This document shows positions 27,725 to 40,005 of a stretch of DNA of 64,000 nucleotides, piece by piece. The notes beneath the pieces are model-generated. The model searched no databases, had not been told where the DNA came from, and saw nothing but the letters and a program-made list of their open reading frames with translations. The stretch's first letter is position 1. Each line of letters starts with the position of its first letter. The translations under genes and the position numbers were made by a program. Origin of the DNA: Gloeophyllum trabeum ATCC 11539 (Eukaryota > Basidiomycota > Agaricomycetes > Gloeophyllales > Gloeophyllaceae). The stretch is from assembly GCF_000344685.1 (NCBI RefSeq), contig NW_006920411.1:1827750-1891749 (forward strand). The letters are read 5' to 3'.

Positions 27725-30700
27725 CTAATCGCTCATTACAGACTCGTCATCTGCCAAGAAGGGGCTTAAGGCACTCATCAATGGGGCCCCAGTAAGAGAA
27801 GTGGATATCAGTAAACTCACGCATATTCATAGTCATTTCTCATCGCATTAGACATCCATTCTTCATCAGCCTCCTGCGTAGGATATCCAGGCCCACCTGC
27901 CAGACTTAGCACAACCGGAAGCAGGACCAGCCCGTGCAGAGCACCCGATATAATTAGCGTTAGCCACATGCGGAAGTAATAGATCTACGTTATGTTAGTT
28001 TACTGGGCGTTTTCCTATTCTTTGTGGTCACTCACTTCCAGAAGCCTTGAGCGGGTGAGGCCGAGTACAGCCATCCCAATTAACTTGGTGAAAGTGATAC
28101 CAGACAGAACCTGCACCTCTGATTGGTCGTCTATAGCGAAAACTGACGAAACAGACATACCGACGGACCAACGTCAACCAATGCTGTCCACATACGCTCG
28201 TCTCTTTCCTTCTGGCCGGCAGGATGGTCCGCAGGCAGACCCGTTCCAGCACTCATGAATGCCCTGGCAACATGTGCGCAGAACTCGACCGCTATGCCAA
28301 GCGATATGACAAGGTTGACCAAGCTTATGGCGTTGAGGCTGATACCCCACAGTCCCATCACCCCCATTACAGTAACGACGGTCAAAGCGACAACTCCGGT
28401 GACAATCGTGCCAGTCCTCCAGGACCCAAGTAGAAGGGCGGTAACGAGCAACACGGACCCTAGACCAAGGCCAAGTATCTCCTGCATGATTGCGACGATG
28501 TGTGCGTATTGGTCAAAGAACACGTAATGGAGCGAGTAAGGGAAGACCTTCGTCCCAGTACGCTCAGATATGTCGTCCGCGATACGGCGGGCAGCTGCGA
28601 AGGAATTGATGAAGTCCTCCTGTGACTTCAGCGGCTTGTGGAAGGTACGGAAGTGGGACGCTATAACATCATCCCGAGTCTCAGAGAGGGACAGTGCCAT
28701 CCCAAATGAGGCCTTCCCTGCTAGAGGGCAGTCTTGGTTCGTTGGAGAGATCAGCCACTGGTTGAGATATTTCATGAACTCGTTCCCTTCAGGCAGCCCT
28801 TCCATAGTGATATTCCACGCCGGTGTTCGCCCGGCAAAGCAAGGCTGACACCGGGCAGAAGAATCACGTTCAGTGCAGAAGCGATCTGTGTTCCTCTTAA
28901 GAACTCTGCAGCATTCTTCCTGAGCGGGATCAAGCCAGCGCAGGAAATCATCTATCCAAGAAGCTGAGGGTTCGGCGATGAAGGATGATTCAGGTCTGTT
29001 GCGTTCAGCTTCGAGGACGTTTACCAAAGAAGATTCATTGCACGTGGTAAACCGACCGCACAGAGCCTGTTGCCCTGGCCGCTGAGTAACGTCGACGTCG
29101 TGGGAGACGAAGTAGACCGGGGGTCCGACGTCCAAATATGCGTCCAGGTCGTTGAAGTAAGGTATGAGATACGACTCCGAAGGGAGCGCAAGCCTTTGGT
29201 CTTTGCAAGGAAGGTCTTCATCGAGACTCGAATGTGCAAAACAGAAAACTCACCGAGACCCAATTGCATATGCTGGATTGAAATGACCGAGGCCACGAAT
29301 AGGCCACCGAACGTAAGCAGCACGACGCCTTTGACAACAGGTCGTAGCAAGAAGGCGGCATAACGACGCCGGATGAATCTTGCAATTGAGCCTAACCCAT
29401 GGCTGGCAGAGGGAGCGTCTAAGAGAGCGACTCTCGAATGCAACTTGATGCAAGGGAAACAGTCTACTCTATTTGCCTGAACATTCTGGTCAATCTCGTC
29501 TCATACCAGGAGGCTTGGGAGTCCACGAACCTCCATACGTCTGAGATCCAAAACTAGCGCGCTGATGAAAACGGTTACTTGTAGGAGGGCGTTCAATAAA
29601 ACGCTTCCGGCAGCATATAACGCGAAGTTCCGTACGGCCGGCATGGGAACTAAGGCGCCCAGTGCAAATGCTACAGTCTCTGTGACCGTGCTGAGCAGTA
29701 TTGACGGGCCCATCTTAGCCAGTGTCCGAGCTACACGTTCCTCTGCTCTCAAGTACAAAGGCATGGACGCAGCATCCACGCTCTCGTCATGCGATGCGGC
29801 GAAGGGTGACCTAGGGTTTTCGGGTCGTGTCGGTGACATGGGAGTCGTCGCGTATTCATTCGAGGATCCTTGGACTGCAGCAGTTGTCGCTGCTGCATTG
29901 GGTCCATGCAATAAATTCTGCCTGTCCAGTTCGTGGACGAGAATGAAAACATTGTCTACACCGACCGCCAGGACTAAGAATGGTATGACTTCCGCAATGA
30001 TGAGAGTAACTTTGACTCCGAGAAGGGAGAAGAAGCCCACAGAGGTTGAAACTGAGAGGATGACAAGCGCGATGCCAAAAAGTCCTAGCGTGAACTTCGA
30101 GCCGACAAACAACTTCCGAGGAAGACGAGGGAAGAGGCGAGGGGTTTCACGAGAGTCGATGGATAACGAAGAGGAGGTTATCCCCGTAGGACGGAAAAGT
30201 TTCGGGAAGTTCCTAGCCCACCGGGCTAGGGAGGACACGACGCCTTCATCATCCCTTGCAGCAACGCCATTTCCCAATGCAATGGACACGTAGAAGAACA
30301 TGGCTAGATAAGAAAGAACGACAATCTTGACGTCCATATTCGTACTCTTGTTGATTTCTTCTTCCAGGGACACACCAGTCGAGAAAGACACGGCTAGGCC
30401 CGCCTCCTGTCGAGCCTGCTCTGTGACGTCCAGAAGATACTTTCTGAGCGTTCGTTCCCATTCCGTCGCTCTCTCCTGGACGGCGGGGTCAAGGGAGTCT
30501 GATACGACGAAAGTCACCACTAGTGCTTCAGCCTTGAGATAATCCTTCTTCCCATCGCCAGTTTCAGGCACTGCTCCGAGAACGAATTCGGGTTTCAAAG
30601 GCTGTTGATAGTCTGGTAGGCAGTCGACCGGAGAATTGGCGCAGTCAAGAAGATGTTCTGCCCAAGTATTCTCGTCGTAATCTGAGATATCTTCTCCAAA

Positions 30701-32260
30701 CCACGCAAGTGCCGACTGGACCACACAGGCGCCGTCTGGCCCGGCGGGTTTGAAGCAGACGTCTTCTAAACTGTATCCGCTTGGAGAACGCAAAGACCGT
30801 ATTCCCTGTTCCACCCTCGACCAGTACTTGAGATGCGACCATGACAGAACGGGCGGCTTCTCGGGAGCAGAGTCGGCCGTCGCCGCTGGGACGGACGTGA
30901 CAAATATCTGCTCCGGACGATAGAACGGCCCGAAATGCTCATCGAAGTACTCTTTTTGCAGCTTGCTCTCAGAATCTGGAGCGACCCACAAACGCACGGG
31001 CTCGGTCTCAACTTGGAACTTTGTCCAACCTAGGTTTAGAAGCCCGACAAGCAAGAAGACAACACTGAGGGTTAACCACGGTGAGGTTGCACAAGTAAAG
31101 CCAAGTTGGTAGAAGAAACGCCGAAGGACGTTGTTCAACCGATACTGTCGAGGTTGAACAGTGTCCATTGGGTCCAGAAGCGACGCACCACGTCCTAGAT
31201 GATGTCTTGACTCTTCTGAAGACGCAGCTCCGGTTGATTCCTCCCCGTCAACATACTGAGCAAGGGATGACGCGCCCAGCAGACCACGATTTCCAGACCT
31301 CGGAGAGAGTGGGTGGTTGGTTTCCGACGCAGCATCGGCACCCAGAACCAACCTTTCATACTTCTTTTCCCTGCGTCGACGAATGGTGAGCTGTAGCAGA
31401 TAGCCGATGGAAAATCCAGCCACTGCTAGGCAGTAAGCCAAAATGAGGACGAAGGAGAGACAGCTCAGAACACCGACATGACATGATGGCTCGGAACCTG
31501 GCGGAGGAACATATGGCAGAGTGGAGCATACGTCGGGGCAATCAATGCATGTGCAACGACTGCTCAGGTCATTATCTGCACAGCTGCGCGGGATGGGATC
31601 GAGAGCCGTGAAGTTATCTGGCACCTCAGATGGATAGTTTATCTGGAAAGGGCTGCCTAGATCCTTCTCGTCACCCATAAATTTCAGAAATGCCTTATAA
31701 TCTTTAGCACCCCCTCCTATGAAGTCCATCGCATACCCATTGCTGGCACCGAACTGCACATTCTTACAGCTGTCGAAGAAACCCTCTGCAAACCGCTGTC
31801 CAACGAAGAAGTCTACGGCCTTAACAGCAGTTTCTCCAGTTCTAGACTTCTGAGTTGAAGTGACGTTCAAGAAAGTACCCTGGTCCGGCGAGCATGTGAA
31901 GGTACAGTAGAAGGACCGGAAGTTATTTCGGCAAGCTGGGCACGAGGAGATAATCCCTTCAGCGGTCTTCAGGTTGTCATACAATGTTTCGACTTGATCT
32001 TTAGTGCAGCATACGGGTCCTTCGGCGTACTCAGGGCCGCAAACAGTCGTCAGTAGTGACCGAGCCTCCTCGTCCTCAGGCTATGGTACAGATCAGCTTC
32101 CTGGAAGCGAAACCAAGCAGACAATAACTCTCACCGGTTGCGCAGAACCATCATAGGGACACGGTAGCGGCTTACCGAACCATCCCTTCGTACCGCAGGA
32201 TCCCCGCATGGCACACGTCCCGAACTCTACACTGCTCGCCATAACGTCCTGCAAGCTCAT
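27725..32260 (-). CDS. NCR1: NPC1/Ncr1 sterol transporter of the vacuole membrane
   Basis: Polytopic membrane protein that moves sterols out of the vacuole/lysosome lumen. The luminal N-terminal domain shows CAMRGSCG, GKPLPCPYDG, VCGPEYAEGPVCC, CPACRNNFRSFYCTFTCSPD. The middle domain, sterol-sensing domain (29.6-30.3 kb) and the C-terminal RND-type helices follow: SLNAISLVNLVISLGIAVEF, MAVLGLTRSRLLE, IYYFRMWLTLII. Two C-termini are possible: a stop at 27817 after NDYEYA, or splicing of a 56-nt intron there giving about 12 more residues and a stop at 27725. The start is doubtful: the first ATG (32260, MSLQDVMASSVEFG) gives no signal peptide, and no other ATG lies between it and the transposon end at 32463. 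The gene may have lost its true 5' exon. Confidence 0.88.
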
Positions 32261-32456
32261 GTCCAGTGCAGGATCGAAGCGGCGCTTGCGCTGAGAGACT
32301 TGACAGAATATCCTCGGGAACTCCGAGCCAGAGAAGTCCGTGTGTGCGAGGTGCAGGTCTCGGTCGTAGGGCGAGAGCTGTTGCTCGCTGACGGAATCGG
32401 CTCACTGACTTTGAGACGCGTAAGGCACGTGGGCGTGCAACTCCCAGAGGATTCCC

Positions 32457-32462
32457 AAAAAG
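32457..32462. repeat. left copy of the target-site string at the transposon
   Basis: AAAAAG directly precedes the left terminal repeat. The same six bases directly follow the right end. The shared string grows to CCCAAAAAGG if bases overlapping the element's own GGG/CCC ends are counted. Confidence 0.6.
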
Positions 32463-32540
32463 GGGCAGTGAGAAAATGCCGAGGCGTGCCGCCGGCTGGC
32501 GAGGCCTTGCAGAGGCATCGCATAGGACAGAGGCGCTTCC
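32463..32540 (+). repeat. left terminal inverted repeat
   Basis: Begins GGGCAGTGAGAAAATGCCG and contains TGCAGAGGCATCGCA at 32508-32522. It pairs in inverted orientation with 39920-39999. Beyond about 80 bp the two arms no longer align well. Confidence 0.75.
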
Positions 32541-34553
32541 AGGACTGTTGAGTCGTAAGACCAGTACGATGGGGGTAGTACGCCATATACATGCTGTATT
32601 GTGAGTGGCATGTGTAAAAATGTTGCTGTGCAGTGGGGGGAGGATGCTCCTCAAAATTCACTTTTCCCCATTTATTTCCTGTGCGCACGGCAACATACAA
32701 GGAGCTAGCCTACCTACAGTAGTTCTCCTGGTTCGCCTGGGGACACTAGCCGTGGTTTCGGGGCAGCGCCACACGCATTCTCCTAGCAGATATTGCCCAC
32801 TATCACGTCACAGCTATATGTCACCCATGTCACAGCGGTATGTCATCCCTAGCCGTTTGGAGATTACACTGTTATACATCCCCTCATTTTTATATTTTCT
32901 TGGGCGCACATATGCCTTTGTTAAGCCAGCGCGCACCAGAGTAGGATCATTCAGTGGTTAATCGAGTCTTAGGGAATGGTAGTCACATTTTCTGTGACAA
33001 ATCACAGCGTCACTTCCTCTTCCGGCATCTCAGGGTTACGTAGGCTAGCTTCGACGTTGTAGAAACGAAGCACCCATCCTGTGGCGGAAAGCGGCTTATG
33101 TATGCGCTCGGCTCTCTCGTAGGCCGACTCGGATGATCACCTTAGAGGTGGTAGTGGATCACAGAACACGTCTGTTTACAAAGGTAAATGTGCTGTATTG
33201 ACACGGCTGCTGGGTATTATTTATGAAAGATACGTAAGTATGCTACAGTATGAACACTGATTGGTGGCTGGAATATCACCGAGGCACCACACAGAAACCT
33301 TGCGAGCTGTAGTACGCCGGACGGAAGTCAAAGTGCGCCACGGCATTGGCCGGTGCCTGCAAGTACACATAGGTTGGCCTCGAATATCGAACGCGTCGTG
33401 GACTTGTGGACGTGTTTTGAACTTCACCCTGGAGGCAGAGCATGCACTCGACATATCTATGCAGGTAGGTAACAGTTGGCTGCATGTGATGTTCGTTTCG
33501 GGCTGTCATGCCTGGTTACAGCCCGTAAACTTCGAAGTCGACTTGCTCTTCCCATAGACCAAGACTCCTGAGTAAGTACTGTGCTCAGTCGCTGTCTCAG
33601 CAGTGCCTCTGCTTGCCTCTGCATGACCTCTGCATGTACTCGGCACTGCCTCTGCACTGCCTCTGCACCACCTCTGCACCACCTCTGCACGCCTCTGCCA
33701 TCCTCTGCAGAGTGAGTCATTGCCTCTGCAGCGAGTCGTACCTAGCGAGTAGATCCGGCTGCAACAAGTACATTACTCAGGTAAGCCGTGGTATAATCTC
33801 CTGTGGCTTTATCTGAATCGTTGTTCTTTGCATTATCCAGCTTGTAAACACCTATATGTATTGCGAATATGGAATATATCTAAGCAGTATCAAGCATCCT
33901 TCATGTCACTGCCGGTGTACGAAACACCTACTGACATAGACCGATGCTCTCTACACCCGATCGACTGTACTAATATTGCTGACGATAACCAGGCACGTCC
34001 TTCGGAACTACCGGCTTTGCCAGTCTTCCCATATAAGCTATTGCGGCATGTTCCTTATTGGGTTGTGGCAGCCCCCTATGCTGGGCGTTGTGGGCGTTGG
34101 GATGCAGACTCTTGCATCCATACGTTGCCTCTGCAGCATCAGCATGCTGGTATGTACGTCCATATTCTGAATTTCAGATTGAGCTGAAGTGTCCAGAGGG
34201 GAATTTGGAAGCATATTGTCCGTTATTTTACAGATCCCGGCTCGGACCAGCCGAAAACACATTTAGTCGCAGGTAAATGCCTGTCTCCGGGTGCGCTGCT
34301 CCGCTCTGACCACGTACTGCCCCACCACTACTGATTCACGCAGCCCCTCATGGGTTTATTCCAATCTATGACTCTACTGGTAGGCTGTCCAAGGACCTTT
34401 ACCGCCCTCCATGTATGTTTCTTACCAGACATCTTCGCAGGAAAAATCATAGGCCTATTCCAGGCCCCTTCATCCGACAGTGCATCAAGCTCTCTCCGTC
34501 AGGGGCATCCTCTGTCCTTGGCCGTTCAGCCTCTGACATCCTCGCCGTCTATT
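32541..34553. other. left internal region of the transposon, upstream of its gene
   Basis: About 2 kb with no convincing protein gene. It contains the CCTCTGC array (33601-33740), several further single copies of the motif (for example near 34128), and presumably the transposase promoter. A frame at 34350-34553 continues in phase into the transposase and could be coding or leader. Confidence 0.5.
33601..33740 (+). repeat. subterminal array of CCTCTGC repeats
   Basis: Ten copies of CCTCTGC in about 140 bp, mostly in the form TGCCTCTGCA or CACCTCTGCA. The same motif occurs four times at 39911-39954 next to the right terminal repeat, and as GCAGAGGC within the left terminal repeat. Arrays like this near transposon ends often bind the transposase. 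Confidence 0.8.
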
Positions 34554-37500
34554 ATGGTACCCATGGCCTCCGGTCAGGCTCCTCCAAAAATTGTGAATTC
34601 TGGAGCGCAGCCTTCCATAGTTCCCTTTGAGCACCAGGGCAAAACTAAGGCAGCACTTGGTGATCCTCATTCAAGAAGCGGCCCAGCGAAAAAACTTTCC
34701 GGTGCCGCTGATGAGTTTGTATGGGACGGTTGGCCAGATGGTGACTTCGAGCACCATTTTTCTTGGGAGGAGCTAAAGCAGACAAACAATCTCATGGTCC
34801 ATTGGTCATGCCACGCGGCCGGCGCAAATGACCACCACAAGCGCAGTGATTGTGCTAAGAACTGGGAGGACGGTGCCTTACTCATACGCTACTGTCGTGG
34901 TATGATCCGTTGCGATCACACTGAATGTCAGATCATCATCCGCCCTCAAACTCGCAGGCTGAAGATCCAGGAGCAATGCCAACATCCATGTCGTTGTGGT
35001 GGGAAACTGACTTGGTTTGAGTGCAATGTTGTTTCGAAGATTTGGACTTACGACGGCGGCAAGTACTTCCAAAATATTGGCAAACACGATCATGCCCGGC
35101 TCACCCACAAGCTGCATCTGTTACCAAATGAACGGGCTGAATTTGAAGCCATAGTGCGAACCAATCCCAAGGCAGGCCCGTTAGCTCTTCTTGTCGGAGC
35201 ACCCGGGATCGAAGGACCAGGCCGGTCAGTTGCTGATATCACCTCGGTACTTGCCAACAAGGATCGCATCAGCAAGGAGCGACAGCACATCACTTCCGGA
35301 CCTGGAGGTGGTAGTGCAGAAACATTCCTGCAGGATTTCGCCACACTTGAGGAGGAGTATCCCAACTTCATCCTCTATTCCCAGATCGGTGCAGTTACTG
35401 TGATCGTGATGCAATCACCATTCATGCGCTCTCAGCTGATTAAAGAGTTCATTCAAACTGAGGCCATCAATGGCCTCGTCACCGATGCTGCACATGGATT
35501 CTGGAGAAACAAAAATGCGCTCTTGATGGTTAGCTCCGTCTTCACAAAGGACCTGCTATGTTGGATACCAGTGTTATTCACCTACTCCAATGGTGCATCA
35601 GCCAAGCATTACGAGAGCCATTTCTTTGCATTGTATGAGAGCATCGGGCAAGAAGCTGAAGAAAGGGGAATACTTGTTGTCGACGAGCTCTTCCTAGATG
35701 TATGTCACAAGTCACTAGTTTGACCAATTTTACTCAACATTACACTGGCAGGTCGTTGACTTCAGCGAGGCACAGAGACAAGGCAAAACACAAGCTTTCA
35801 TTAGGTTCTGGCAACTGCGACAAGACAATACCCGCTCTGAGGATGAGCTGCGCGAGGCCGCGTCAGCCATTGTGAAGGGCTGCCGCGAGCACTTCCAGCG
35901 TGGGGTGACTCGGCTGACCAGAATCTCGGCTGTTATCCCATTTGGTAGGGCAACAGCCTTCGAGTTTCGCGTGCAGGGGTTGTTTGATGCCGAAGATCTG
36001 GCGACCTTTGGGGAAAGGGCTGCCCTTATAATCAAGGAGTTTCCGAAGACAGAACCCTGGCTATCGTGGTGGATAAGCGAGACGCATGCGCCATTATTAT
36101 TTCCAGCTCACCGTAAGATGAAGCCGGATCTATGGGAATCTATCCCGGACACAACAAACGCTGAAGAGTCCATGCATTGGAAGCTCTACGCAGCAACTGG
36201 CCGTGATCACGTACTTCTAGAGGGGATCAGATCATTATATGCTTTCTCTGACCATTATCAAAGGCTGGCGACTGCGAATCTTAGTACGTATCCTTGTAAT
36301 CACAACTGGAACAACAGTCACATACCATTCATTCTGCAGGTGGGGTGCCAATACGTTATGGAAGCGCAGAACCATGGAAACTTGTTGCGAGCAGGATTGG
36401 TCGAACTAAACCAACCAGGGCTCCAGAGGCTTACGAACGTCGCCGGTATAAGAATGATGGGCGCCCTCCTGACACTGCAAAAGAACTTGCTGAGACGCGG
36501 AGCAAGAGCCGCAAGTTGCAGAAGTCCCAGATTCGGAGTGATGAGAAGAAAGCTGAAACTCTGGAGCGAAACATTTACCAAAGTTATCCATGGTCAAATA
36601 ATTCATGCTGGCTTGACACCGCATTGGAGCTTCTCTTCAATGTGGTGGGTAGAGATTACAAGAGCTTCCGTGAAAGATTCCAGGCTCTCCCTCACGATAC
36701 CTGCCTGTGGGCACTGTATGAGGTGATTGATTTGCGACGCACGAACCAAGAAGCCGCTTCAAATCACCCACGCATCAAAGACCGCCGCACTTGGCTCACA
36801 GAGCAACGCGACAGTTACCGGACTCGGTTGAAGCATTATCGTTGTATTTCTGCGGAGGACGATCTCAAGTCTCTATTCGTGCGTTTTCATGACCCATTGA
36901 GTTTTCTCGAATGCTGACGATGCCTGCATGTTCCAGGGATGGTTGAGTACTGTTCTCCAACGGGAATGGGATAAAGAGGGCTGCATTTACAGTGCCACTT
37001 ATTTCCATGGCTACCGGGTGAAACTACGAATTTGTACGACCATCAAGGCCACAGAACCATCATATAAGCACTATCAAATAACCTCTGAGCCACAGAAGAC
37101 CTTTGAATATCGTCTGAACTCACAAGATCATCAAACCTACCATGGCAAAGTCCAAAGCTGGTTCCGGCAGATGACCTCAATGAATCCACCTCCTCACACC
37201 CTTGCTCAATGCTTCAAGACGAAGGACGGGGTCTGCCTTTGCCAAGGCGATGCTTGTGACATAACACTGAACATTATGCTTCCAGTATGCCTCATTATCT
37301 GGGTCGAGGATGATGATTTGAATGTATGGGATTTTCCTATCACGCTCCGGCCACTCACCAAGGAGGCAGCCGCTGATGGGGTGGTATATGACATGGTTGG
37401 GCGCGGACTTCACAGTGCCGAACAGCAGCACTTCATTACCCGCTTCCGAACCCCGCAGGGCAAGATCTACACATATGACGGTCAATTAGCTGACGGTGTT

Positions 37501-39688
37501 GCGACTGCGCACACTGCCAAGCTGAAAGATCTTCTCAGTGGTCCTGAAGTTGTGTTACCGTCTGGCTACAAGACCAATGTTGTCATTTACCACCTACGAG
37601 GAGGGACGGGAGCACAACGTACCCTGTATGCCCATCAGATTGCAGCCGCAAAGCGCCTTCATCAGATAGTCTTTACTGACGAAGAACTTGGGCTGGCGAC
37701 GACGGTTGGGCTCGATCTCGAAGGATATGAGCAAATGCCAGGCATCAAGCGAACCTGGATGGTGAACCCATACTCCAAGAAAGTTGCTGACTACAGGCCG
37801 ACAGCGTTCTCAGAAACACCCAGTGAAAAAGGCCCAGAGAAGCATTTACCGGAGCCACCTATCTTCTCATCTCCGCTCAAGGCAAAGACACCCATAGCTC
37901 GGAGACGCGCAAAGAAGAGGAGGGCACCAAGTACAAGTCCTGAAAGTGATCACCGACTTTCGGGTCCGGCTGCATCTGCAAGTATTGTCAAGCAGAAGGA
38001 TGAAGATGTCGCTGCGGATGACATTGAACAGCCAGACGGCAATGTACCAGCCCCGGCTCGGGTGAATCTATCGAGTCCCGGTGATGCCACTGGTGATCGT
38101 GGTCAAACTCCGCAAGGACCGCCATTCTACTGTCGCTGTGGTCTCCGGGGTAACTGGAATGAACTGGCTATTGCTGAGCCTACCATTGAATGCCATATGT
38201 GCGAGAGGTGGTCACATATTGCGTGCCAAAAAGGAGGGCGTGCTAGCCGCTTGACGCCATCCCAGAAGTTCACCTGTGATGACTGCATGCTTCCCCACTT
38301 ATTGCGCCAAAATATGATTCCTAAACCCAGGAGAAAGCGGAGAGTGTATGTATGCTCTGGATTTCCTCGTGAAATGAGAGGGACCTGAAATTATATCTTC
38401 ACAGTCCTCGAACGGTACAAAATAAGAAACCGCCAGCCACACGACTCCTGTAAGTGCAATGAATAAATACATGGGTCCTAGAGAAGTCTAAACGGAGAAC
38501 AGCCCAGGCAAAGGAGCACTTGTTCGTCACGGTGATACTTACTGGTATCCCGTGCGACTGATTGCCTCGAGGCGAAGGGATAATGTTACCGAATGGCAAG
38601 TGAAATGGTGGAGAGGCTGCGTGTTCGCTGATGATAGTGCTGTGGGGTGCTGGGTGCCCGCTGAGCGCGTGGTCGATGAGCTGTGGCAAAACAGAGAAGA
38701 AAGACGCAAGATACGTGTAAGTTACAACATCTCACATGATGTGACCTTTACCTAAAAACATACCTGGTCTAGCTTGGACGTTGGCAGATGGCATGTCAAG
38801 TGCCGGGGATCGAAGATCAGTTACTGGACTTCGATGGTCACGTACCAACTGCAGAGATAAAGACTGTGTTGACCCCACATCAGGAGCTGCTGACACGCCT
38901 CACATATCAGCCGGAAGACGTTACCGAATACATACCTGCTCTGGAAGACATACTCTCCAACGACCATGGGCCTGAATCCCTGAGAAGTGGTACAGTGCCT
39001 CATACCGGGGAGCTTAGCCTGGTCGAGCGGGCTCAGGTCGGGAGCTGGTTCATACATAATATAACAGATGCACGAGCCAAACAGAGCCTATGGGTTGGCC
39101 GTGCGGCATATGCCCATGCCGTGACTTTGCTTCTAGCTAATCGCCACAAAGAGCAAATACTTCAGGAGAGCAAGTACCCTCATAATGGCACCCGCGCTGA
39201 ACAGGATGCTTTCATCCTGGAGAAAGCATACGAACATCAAAAGGGATCTGTGGGCGATGAGTATCTCTCTGCTGATACTGATGTCGACCAGGAATGCTTG
39301 CTGTCGTTCGAGGAGCGCCTCTTCGAGAACTCCGCAGCCGCAGGGGTGGCGGGTAATCATCAGTGGGGTCTCGACGCCGGACCGCATCAAGACAACTGGA
39401 ACCCGTATCAGTACATTCCAAGCTGGTGGAACTATGAGGACCGTGACGAGAGAGAATCCGAACTCGAGGTGAGTGCTCATCCATTTAGAGGCGAAATTTG
39501 GCCTCAGTCGTTGACATTCCATGTTTTGTAAGTACGGTCCTAACTACGTCAAGAGTACTAGCGATACCGTTAATCCTCGAAAGCGCAAGGAAGTCACGCA
39601 GGCAGGACACCGGCCCCTCCCGCGGCCTGCCTATGCCGGACATGCAAAGGAAGACTTGAAGGCGGCTAAAAGACAGAAGTTAACCTGA
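34554..39688 (+). CDS. MULE transposase fused to USP/USPL1-like peptidase, PHD finger and Tudor/PWWP-like domain
   Basis: Seven exons fit: 34554-35699, 35752-36283, 36340-36878, 36937-38345, 38503-38716, 38773-39468 and 39533-39688, giving 1,563 residues with no stop or frameshift. Residues 60-200 are a Cys/His-rich, WRKY-GCM1-like region (CRGMIRCDHTECQIII, CRCGGKLTWFECN, NIGKHDHARLTHK). The transposase follows: D311 in VTDAAHGFW, D385 in VVDFSEAQR, and E521 in TTNAEESMHW. Next is a cysteine peptidase resembling USP/USPL1: C649 in NNSCWLDTALELLF, H904 in QQHFITRF and D920 in YTYDGQ. A basic linker leads to a PHD finger (about 1138-1190, CRCG..CHMC..H..C..CDDC). Exon 5 encodes a small beta-rich, Tudor/PWWP-like domain (YWYPVRLI, WQVKWWRGCVF). 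The C-terminal 280 residues are unrecognised. Start alternatives: 34350 and 34563. Confidence 0.82.
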
Positions 39689-39910
39689 ACTTGCTGTATA
39701 TCAATGACTGTCCATGCGAACGATGGACCTCTAAGCTGGGCAAGCTGGGCAATAAGTGCTTTATTCTCAGAAAGCAGTAATATTATTCATTATATATGTG
39801 TTGTCTCGGGGCAGAATGTGTACTAGAAACGTGATGGGAAGGACTTAATGATATTGGAACAACCGGCTGGCGAACCACTCAAGTACTAAGTACTCATTAC
39901 TCGCTCAGGC

Positions 39911-39954
39911 ATGCCTCTGCAATGCCTCTGCAGATCCTCTGCGATGCCTCTGCA
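39911..39954 (+). repeat. right subterminal CCTCTGC copies
   Basis: Four CCTCTGC copies in 44 bp, in the same strand orientation as the array at 33601-33740. The last copy is part of the 15-base block shared with the left end. Confidence 0.75.
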
Positions 39955-39999
39955 CGACCTCGGCAATCCGCGTCATGCCTCGGCACTTTTCCTGTGCCC
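39920..39999 (-). repeat. right terminal inverted repeat
   Basis: Ends ...CTTTTCCTGTGCCC on the plus strand and pairs inverted with 32463-32540. The symmetric 45-base spacing of the identical block from each end fixes the borders fairly well. Confidence 0.75.
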
Positions 40000-40005
40000 A
40001 AAAAG
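40000..40005. repeat. right copy of the target-site string
   Basis: AAAAAG directly after the TGCCC end, identical to 32457-32462. Confidence 0.6.

Follow-up and report, generated by a model that had tools for sequence, protein, structure and literature searches.

The 64,000-nucleotide stretch of the Gloeophyllum trabeum genome examined here (the window; G000:C2:1827750-1891749 of the 35.5-Mb genome of this brown-rot fungus) carries a DNA transposon at positions 32463-39999, which encloses a gene fusing a DDE transposase to a cysteine peptidase. The best explanation, and one that we consider reasonably probable, is a transposon of Mutator-like organisation in which one polypeptide combines the DDE transposase, a probably active USP-fold peptidase, and reader domains in the editing of protein tags. 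The fusion, the terminal inverted repeats (TIRs) with a target-site duplication (TSD), the conservation of residues, the purifying selection, and the predicted USP fold were all computed. The element is apparently an autonomous, low-copy cut-and-paste DNA transposon. Besides the window copy (copy 1), there is an intact second coding copy (copy 2; L027, C4:1535500-1545400), and a third (copy 3; C2:3317177-3321135, minus strand) that contains stop codons inside its aligned segments and has a degenerate 5' end.

Removal of seven GT-AG introns (52-64 nt) joins the reading frames of the gene into a single 1578-amino-acid product from the ATG at 34554, which contains, in order, a GCM-like zinc finger, the DDE core, the cysteine peptidase, a C4HC3 PHD finger, and a chromo/Tudor-like segment. 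The original prediction, made from the letters alone, had described one gene of seven exons from this ATG. The single joined product stands, but the exons number at least eight, and others probably lie upstream; a small exon at 38405-38449 had been overlooked. With this exon, the junction reads ATRLLPGKGAL, which is closer to the homologues (e.g., SKRLLPGKGAL) than is that of the closest database protein, P0001 (GLOTRDRAFT_70775 of G. trabeum ATCC 11539; 93% identity over 97% of the translation), which has one longer intron there; the inspected differences between P0001 and the spliced translation are splice choices. The frame does open at 34554, but the N-termini of the homologues and of copy 2 match upstream frames at approximately 34191-34256 (RGIWKHIVRYFTD) and 34352-34390 (GFIPIYDSTGRL), so the real start is probably upstream, in one or more further coding exons, and this ATG is probably internal. 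The positions predicted for the catalytic residues held: D311 at 35484-35486, D385 at 35758-35760, E521 at 36166-36168, C649 at 36606-36608, H904 at 37429-37431, and D920 at 37477-37479.

Three protein searches, in which the scored candidates were those sharing the most words, returned 64 proteins, namely P0001 and 63 others, whose named sources, apart from one rust, were Agaricomycetes spread over many genera. Among the 63, and counting those that span each site, the transposase residues D311 (51/51), D385 (53/53), and E521 (53/54) and the peptidase residues C649 (50/51) and H904 (57/58) were almost invariant, and D920 was retained in 54 of 59, the others having Asn (three) or Lys (two). Thirty of the 63 span both the DDE core and the peptidase triad, and 28 of these keep all six catalytic residues, so the fusion is not the product of faulty annotation; the two exceptions are P0010, with Asn for Asp, and P0061, a divergent or mis-joined model. 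Two of the 28 call for caution: P0028 is fused by annotation, and P0049 is divergent enough for the peptidase hidden Markov model (HMM) to miss it, although the motifs are visible when it is aligned. As deposited, P0028 (Tetrapyrgos nigripes) is a GH7 cellobiohydrolase joined to the transposase family, and is probably a mis-joined gene model.

The joining of two adjacent genes into one model could be suspected in an intron-rich fungal gene whose earlier model was made without transcripts, the more so when a relative such as P0028 seems to be mis-joined to an unrelated glycosyl hydrolase. However, a Cys box lies behind the DDE core in P0001 and in 42 of the 43 homologous predicted proteins that span the E521 and C649 regions, as expected for the continuous transposase–peptidase gene originally proposed, and the alignments of both copy 2 and copy 3 are interrupted close to the same exon junctions. 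We rejected two joined genes on the strength of the Cys box counts and regard such an artefact as extremely improbable. Copies 2 and 3 also keep all six catalytic residues; copy 2 retains 20 of the 20 residues checked and copy 3 all except C772. Between copies 1 and 2, the proportion of synonymous differences is saturated (0.76-0.90), and the proportion of nonsynonymous differences is 0.18 in the GCM and DDE regions, 0.24 in the USP domain, 0.17 in the PHD finger, and 0.20 in the C-terminal part. In the linker it reaches 0.49, against which the value for the USP domain indicates purifying selection on the peptidase, as on the transposase.

The catalytic domain of the peptidase is predicted to adopt the USP (papain-like) fold, according to Foldseek and superposition of structure models of homologues. 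In these models, the equivalents of C649, H904, and D920 fall at the expected secondary-structure elements, and the full domain superposes on USPs, two observations that fit the three residues coming together. For one model, USPL1 was the top Foldseek match (E = 1.1e-8), and for the other it was absent among the 50 matches listed; by Z-score, USPL1 was level with the ubiquitin USPs in the structural comparison. Solved DDE transposases were absent among the 50 structural matches listed, all places being taken by USP-domain matches. The triad runs in the order Cys649-His904-Asp920, with the Asp 16 residues after the His, and is kept in 44 of the 48 homologues that span it, Asn replacing Asp in three. 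A putative zinc site is formed by C772 (54/55), H784 (53/56), C831 (54/56), and C841 (55/57). The catalytic order of ULP1/SENP peptidases is His-Asp-Cys, and membership of that family (C48) was rejected because the order here is Cys-His-Asp; this order and the predicted fold both agree with the USP/USPL1 type to which the peptidase had originally been assigned, rather than with the ULP1 type. Membership of the VTD group was likewise rejected, because the Asp lies 16 residues behind the His and not in an Asp-x-His arrangement.

In principle, the domain could be catalytically dead and act as a binding module that grips ubiquitin or SUMO on chromatin. Its sequence is far from known USPs, and USP-like pseudoenzymes have been solved, one of which, PAN2 (4xr7), is among the fold matches. 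Nevertheless, an active site that is not needed would decay, whereas the Cys, His, and Asp are retained at the frequencies given above, with Asn in three of the exceptions at D920, and we consider a dead module very unlikely. The peptidase is probably an active, divergent USP-fold cysteine peptidase, and its clade escapes current sequence models. A Pfam scan of 27 whole family proteins at E 1 gave no UCH and no other peptidase or transposase family, and the gene is absent from the 25 Pfam UCH matches in the G. trabeum genome. No USPL1/C98 family appeared in the Pfam match lists of the family, the presence of a C98 model in the library being unconfirmed. The best peptidase match of the whole-family profile in the PDB was USP54, at E 1.8. 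In a search of viral structures (BFVD) with the P0022 model, the top match was O92526 (E 1.1e-10 over 530 aligned columns), an uncharacterised Bracoviriform inaniti protein that may be a transposase relative; the next 14 named matches were mostly viral USPs.

The ends of the element are those of a DNA transposon. TIRs of approximately 64 bp, starting with GGGCA..G..AAA.TGCCGAGGC, are common to the window copy and copy 2, and copy 2 is flanked by an exact 9-bp TSD (ATCGGTGCC; L027 174-182 and 7933-7941). A probable TSD also flanks the window copy; identical random 9-mer pairs occurred in 8 of 2,000,000 draws within the window. With zero mismatches, the TIR pattern occurs genome-wide only at the four ends of the window copy and copy 2. 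When up to three mismatches were allowed, there were 36 genome matches against 16 for a reversed control, so only the exact matches and one beside copy 3 carry weight. The 3' end and TSD of copy 3 were looked for, and neither was found. Lone matches with two mismatches lie at G000:C15:732737-732759 and C24:103816-103838, with no coding relative within the 3-kb loci, and are possible remnants or chance matches.

The motif CCTCKGC is repeated at the ends of both copies. In the window copy, it occurs six times in the right end, twice in inverted orientation in the left end, 10 times in an internal array (33590-33740), and not at all in the coding part; in copy 2, the corresponding counts are four, three (inverted), four, and two (inverted), the internal array lying at L027 1202-1296. 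We infer that these repeats are putative binding sites for the transposase. A noisy comparison of the 2-kb leaders of the window copy and copy 2 revealed no conserved second gene, and the TIR, the array, and the N-terminal exon were the only similarities among the matches listed.

The DDE core has D-D-E spacings of 74 and 136 residues and a CxxH motif (C426 in 56/58 and H429 in 57/58 of the homologues spanning each site), followed by W510 (48/53). For comparison, the catalytic residues of Muta1 are given as D214, D283, and E419 in the cited section of its description, i.e., spacings of 69 and 136 (PMC5225508), and the same section places a CH motif and a W between the second D and the E of Mutator-like element (MULE) transposases, both of which also occur in hAT (PMC5225508). 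The element thus has the Mutator-like traits of an approximately 9-bp TSD, approximately 64-bp TIRs, the DDE spacing, the CH motif, and the W.

Several results weigh against our interpretation of the element and its peptidase. The Pfam MULE model matched none of 27 family members and, in the G. trabeum genome, matched four other places but not the fusion element, and hhalign against three or four G. trabeum MULE frames, which are shallow templates, gave a probability of 0.1-0.2. The traits fit but these two comparisons do not, so we describe the organisation of the element as Mutator-like without assigning it to the MULEs. As regards the peptidase, Pfam UCH matched only one of 15 family peptidases (E 0.014, not above the cut-off), and a peptidase-only profile matched no PDB sequence at E 10. 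The structure models are of homologues from other species, including P0022 and P0025, and not of the window protein itself, and their low predicted template-modelling scores (0.45 and 0.48) mean that the arrangement of the domains cannot be read from them. The right 9-mer of the window copy overlaps the end of the TIR, so that its TSD is less clean than that of copy 2. Finally, the genome search found only three coding copies in G. trabeum. None of the three is near-identical to another, and copies 1 and 2 are far diverged and under purifying selection, as might be seen if these loci were domesticated host genes of transposon origin and not an active element. However, both good copies have matching TIRs, copy 2 has its exact TSD, and the TIR motif repeats are common to the two; transposons that persist through fresh transposition or through horizontal transfer should show purifying selection as well. 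We consider domestication unlikely.

The reader domains were recognised more readily in the family than in the window protein, in which the only Pfam match was a PHD finger below the threshold (E 0.015, or 0.002 for the exon at 36937-38345 alone). In the family, Pfam PHD was found in 16 of 27 members (best 2.4e-5; most under the gathering score), and the family profile matched solved PHD fingers in the PDB (best E 4.1e-10). The PHD zinc ligands are kept in 27-43 of the 28-46 sequences spanning each site. The PHD finger proposed originally is therefore borne out, both by these profile matches and by a C4HC3 pattern at residues 1138-1189. Pfam GCM was detected in seven of 27 members (best E 3.5e-4), with P0043 scoring 20.2 bits against a cut-off of 25; a GCM scan of the G. 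trabeum genome gave no match at any place, the controls among them, and therefore carries no weight. The chromo/Tudor-like segment is predicted to form four strands in the P0025 model and gave a weak Pfam chromo-like match (E 0.0083, in 2/10) and a PDB Tudor match at E 0.8. The DGRPPDT stretch in the linker between the DDE core and the peptidase (residues 599-605, ~36455-36478) is among the most conserved of the family and also occurs in the rust and metagenome relatives.

In the mechanism that we favour, the GCM-type zinc finger would bind the GCCGAGG/TGCAGAGGCA repeats at the element ends, the RNase-H-like DDE domain would cut and join DNA, and the PHD finger and chromo/Tudor-like barrel would most likely keep the transposase on chromatin. 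The substrates of the USP domain would be neighbouring proteins of chromatin, silencing, or repair, or else the transposase, and their release from ubiquitin or a ubiquitin-like tag would favour the expression and transposition of the element. We infer the DNA-binding target, the enzyme activity, the substrate, and the benefit to the element in this scheme. Self-deubiquitination of the transposase is, above all, the foremost rival. According to this explanation, it is the transposase that the USP domain protects or processes, by deubiquitination or polyprotein maturation, and chromatin plays no part; fusion in cis makes the transposase the nearest substrate, and the VTD domains of Helitrons have been proposed, in the relevant part of one report, to spare transposition proteins from proteasomal degradation (PMC9741609). 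It leaves the conserved PHD and chromo/Tudor-like domains unexplained, although these could act separately, and seems to us rather unlikely.

Beyond the Mutator-like reader–peptidase element that we favour, a broader proposal is held only tentatively, and we would sooner doubt than assert it: a widespread, ancient eukaryotic family of DDE transposons with a built-in chromatin reader-eraser, uniting a DNA-binding zinc finger, the transposase, PHD and chromo/Tudor-like readers, and a USP-fold clade peculiar to the family. At the element ends, histones or silencing factors would lose their ubiquitin or SUMO to this peptidase, and in this way the transposase would open up its own chromatin. The DDE and the peptidase may, in this view, have been linked before mushrooms arose. 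In the rust protein P0031, the alignment extends through the DDE core and the His/Asp end of the peptidase is retained (HMM independent E-value 6e-5 among 64 sequences), and no Cys box was seen in its alignment. P0049, a deeply divergent metagenome protein of 1132 amino acids on a 3.7-kb contig, has a GCM-like region, the DDE core, NDGRPPDT, and the peptidase in the same order, with a Cys box of NTCALD and CxxC-type cysteines; no relatives of it were found in viral contigs. Because these two proteins hold parts of the fusion, the DDE–peptidase linkage may predate the Agaricomycetes, with horizontal transfer as an alternative to an old linkage.

Features of the fusion element in the window (positions count from the first nucleotide of the window)
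Feature	Position	Strand	Evidence
Probable left TSD, CCCAAAAAG	32454..32462	.	Identical 9-mer at 39997-40005
Left TIR, GGGCAGTGAGAAAATGCCGAGGCGTG...	32463..32526	+	79-85% identity over 53-66 bp with the three remaining ends in the window copy and copy 2
Internal array of ~11-bp TGCCTCTGCA motif	33596..33730	+	Motif recurs in the right end and, in inverted form, the left end
Probable upstream coding exon with conserved N-terminal motif RGIWKHIVRYFTD; boundaries approximate	34191..34256	+	Copy 2 match at E 2.4e-7; homologue N-termini
Exon: GCM-like zinc-finger region (~residues 57-205) and first DDE Asp, D311	34554..35699	+	Splicing; Pfam GCM in the family
Exon: D385, C426xxH429, W510, and E521 of the DDE core	35752..36283	+	Splicing; conservation
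Exon: NDGRPPDT linker and Cys box NNSCWLD (C649)	36340..36878	+	Splicing; conservation
Exon: remaining USP-fold domain (C772, H784, C831, C841; H904; D920), disordered linker, and PHD finger	36937..38345	+	Conservation; homologue models
PHD finger	38125-38304	+	C4HC3 pattern; profiles
Small exon	38405..38449	+	Junction resembles homologues
Exon: chromo/Tudor-like segment, GKGALVRHGDTYWYPVRLI..WQVKWWRG	38503..38716	+	P0025 model; weak profile matches
Exon: conserved C-terminal domain, mostly helical	38773..39468	+	Splicing; alignment; P0025 model
Last coding exon and stop	39533..39688	+	Splicing
Right TIR with CCTCTGC array	39936..39999	-	Comparison of copy ends
Probable right TSD, CCCAAAAAG	39997..40005	.	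Shares the final CCC of the right TIR

The element lies between an NPC1-like sterol transporter gene (29504-32080, minus strand) and an FAD-binding oxidoreductase gene (from ~40040 onward, plus strand). It is near the apparent 5' parts of both and may therefore affect two promoters.

Transposons acquire anti-silencing tools, including TET/JBP enzymes, SET domains, ULP1, OTU, and VTD. Transposon-borne ubiquitin-like-protein (UBL) proteases (ULP1, OTU, and VTD) and PHD fingers in transposases are already known, and full-text searches of open-licence PMC papers returned no description of a USP-fold domain inside a DDE transposase. Many mushroom-forming fungi retain the fusion, which suggests that the element brings with it a tool with which to edit the protein tags of its host. 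A USP domain on a DDE transposase with reader-type domains, its active site conserved across many Agaricomycete genera, would build the editing of protein tags into the transposition machinery, and the question of which host tag limits transposition would become approachable via C649A. The fusion also defines a peptidase clade that present sequence models miss. With USP (C19) and USPL1 (C98) peptidases, this clade shares the predicted fold, the Cys-His-Asp order, and the 16-residue His-Asp spacing, but it lacks profile-level sequence similarity above the cut-off and is transposon-borne. The usual USP zinc site consists of four Cys, whereas that of the fusion domain is apparently Cys-His-Cys-Cys (C772/H784/C831/C841).

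Among transposons, KDZ, Plavaka, and other fungal elements with TET/JBP similarly carry an enzyme that edits chromatin or DNA marks, as set out in the part of the source cited, but TET/JBP oxidise DNA methylation, whereas the fusion element would act on protein tags (PMC12730594); the words peptidase, protease, SUMO, and PHD do not occur in the main text of that paper. The cnidarian MULE MuDR-6_HM is a DDE element with a gene of the Ovarian Tumour (deubiquitinase) type, and Rehavkus has a PHD-finger transposase and 9-bp TSDs, but the deubiquitinase and the PHD finger are in different elements, and no USP domain appears among the table rows listed (PMC6446971). Helitrons with VTD or OTU domains also contain a cysteine deubiquitinase domain within the main protein of the element, and their VTD domains are reported, in the portion cited, to be active deubiquitinases; there, however, the protein is a rolling-circle Rep/helicase and VTD has Asp-x-His, whereas here a DDE core is combined with a USP fold in which the His precedes the Asp (PMC9741609). 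In the account cited of plant elements, Vandal elements carry VANC anti-silencing genes, of which some have ULP1, and MULEs such as Kaonashi/KIU have ULP1 domains (PMC13317346). The ULP1 MULEs resemble the fusion element in being Mutator-like transposons with a domain of the UBL-protease type, the reported setting being anti-silencing, but as described there the ULP1 (C48) domain is encoded in a gene separate from the transposase (PMC13317346), whereas in the G. trabeum element the predicted USP fold is in frame with the DDE transposase.

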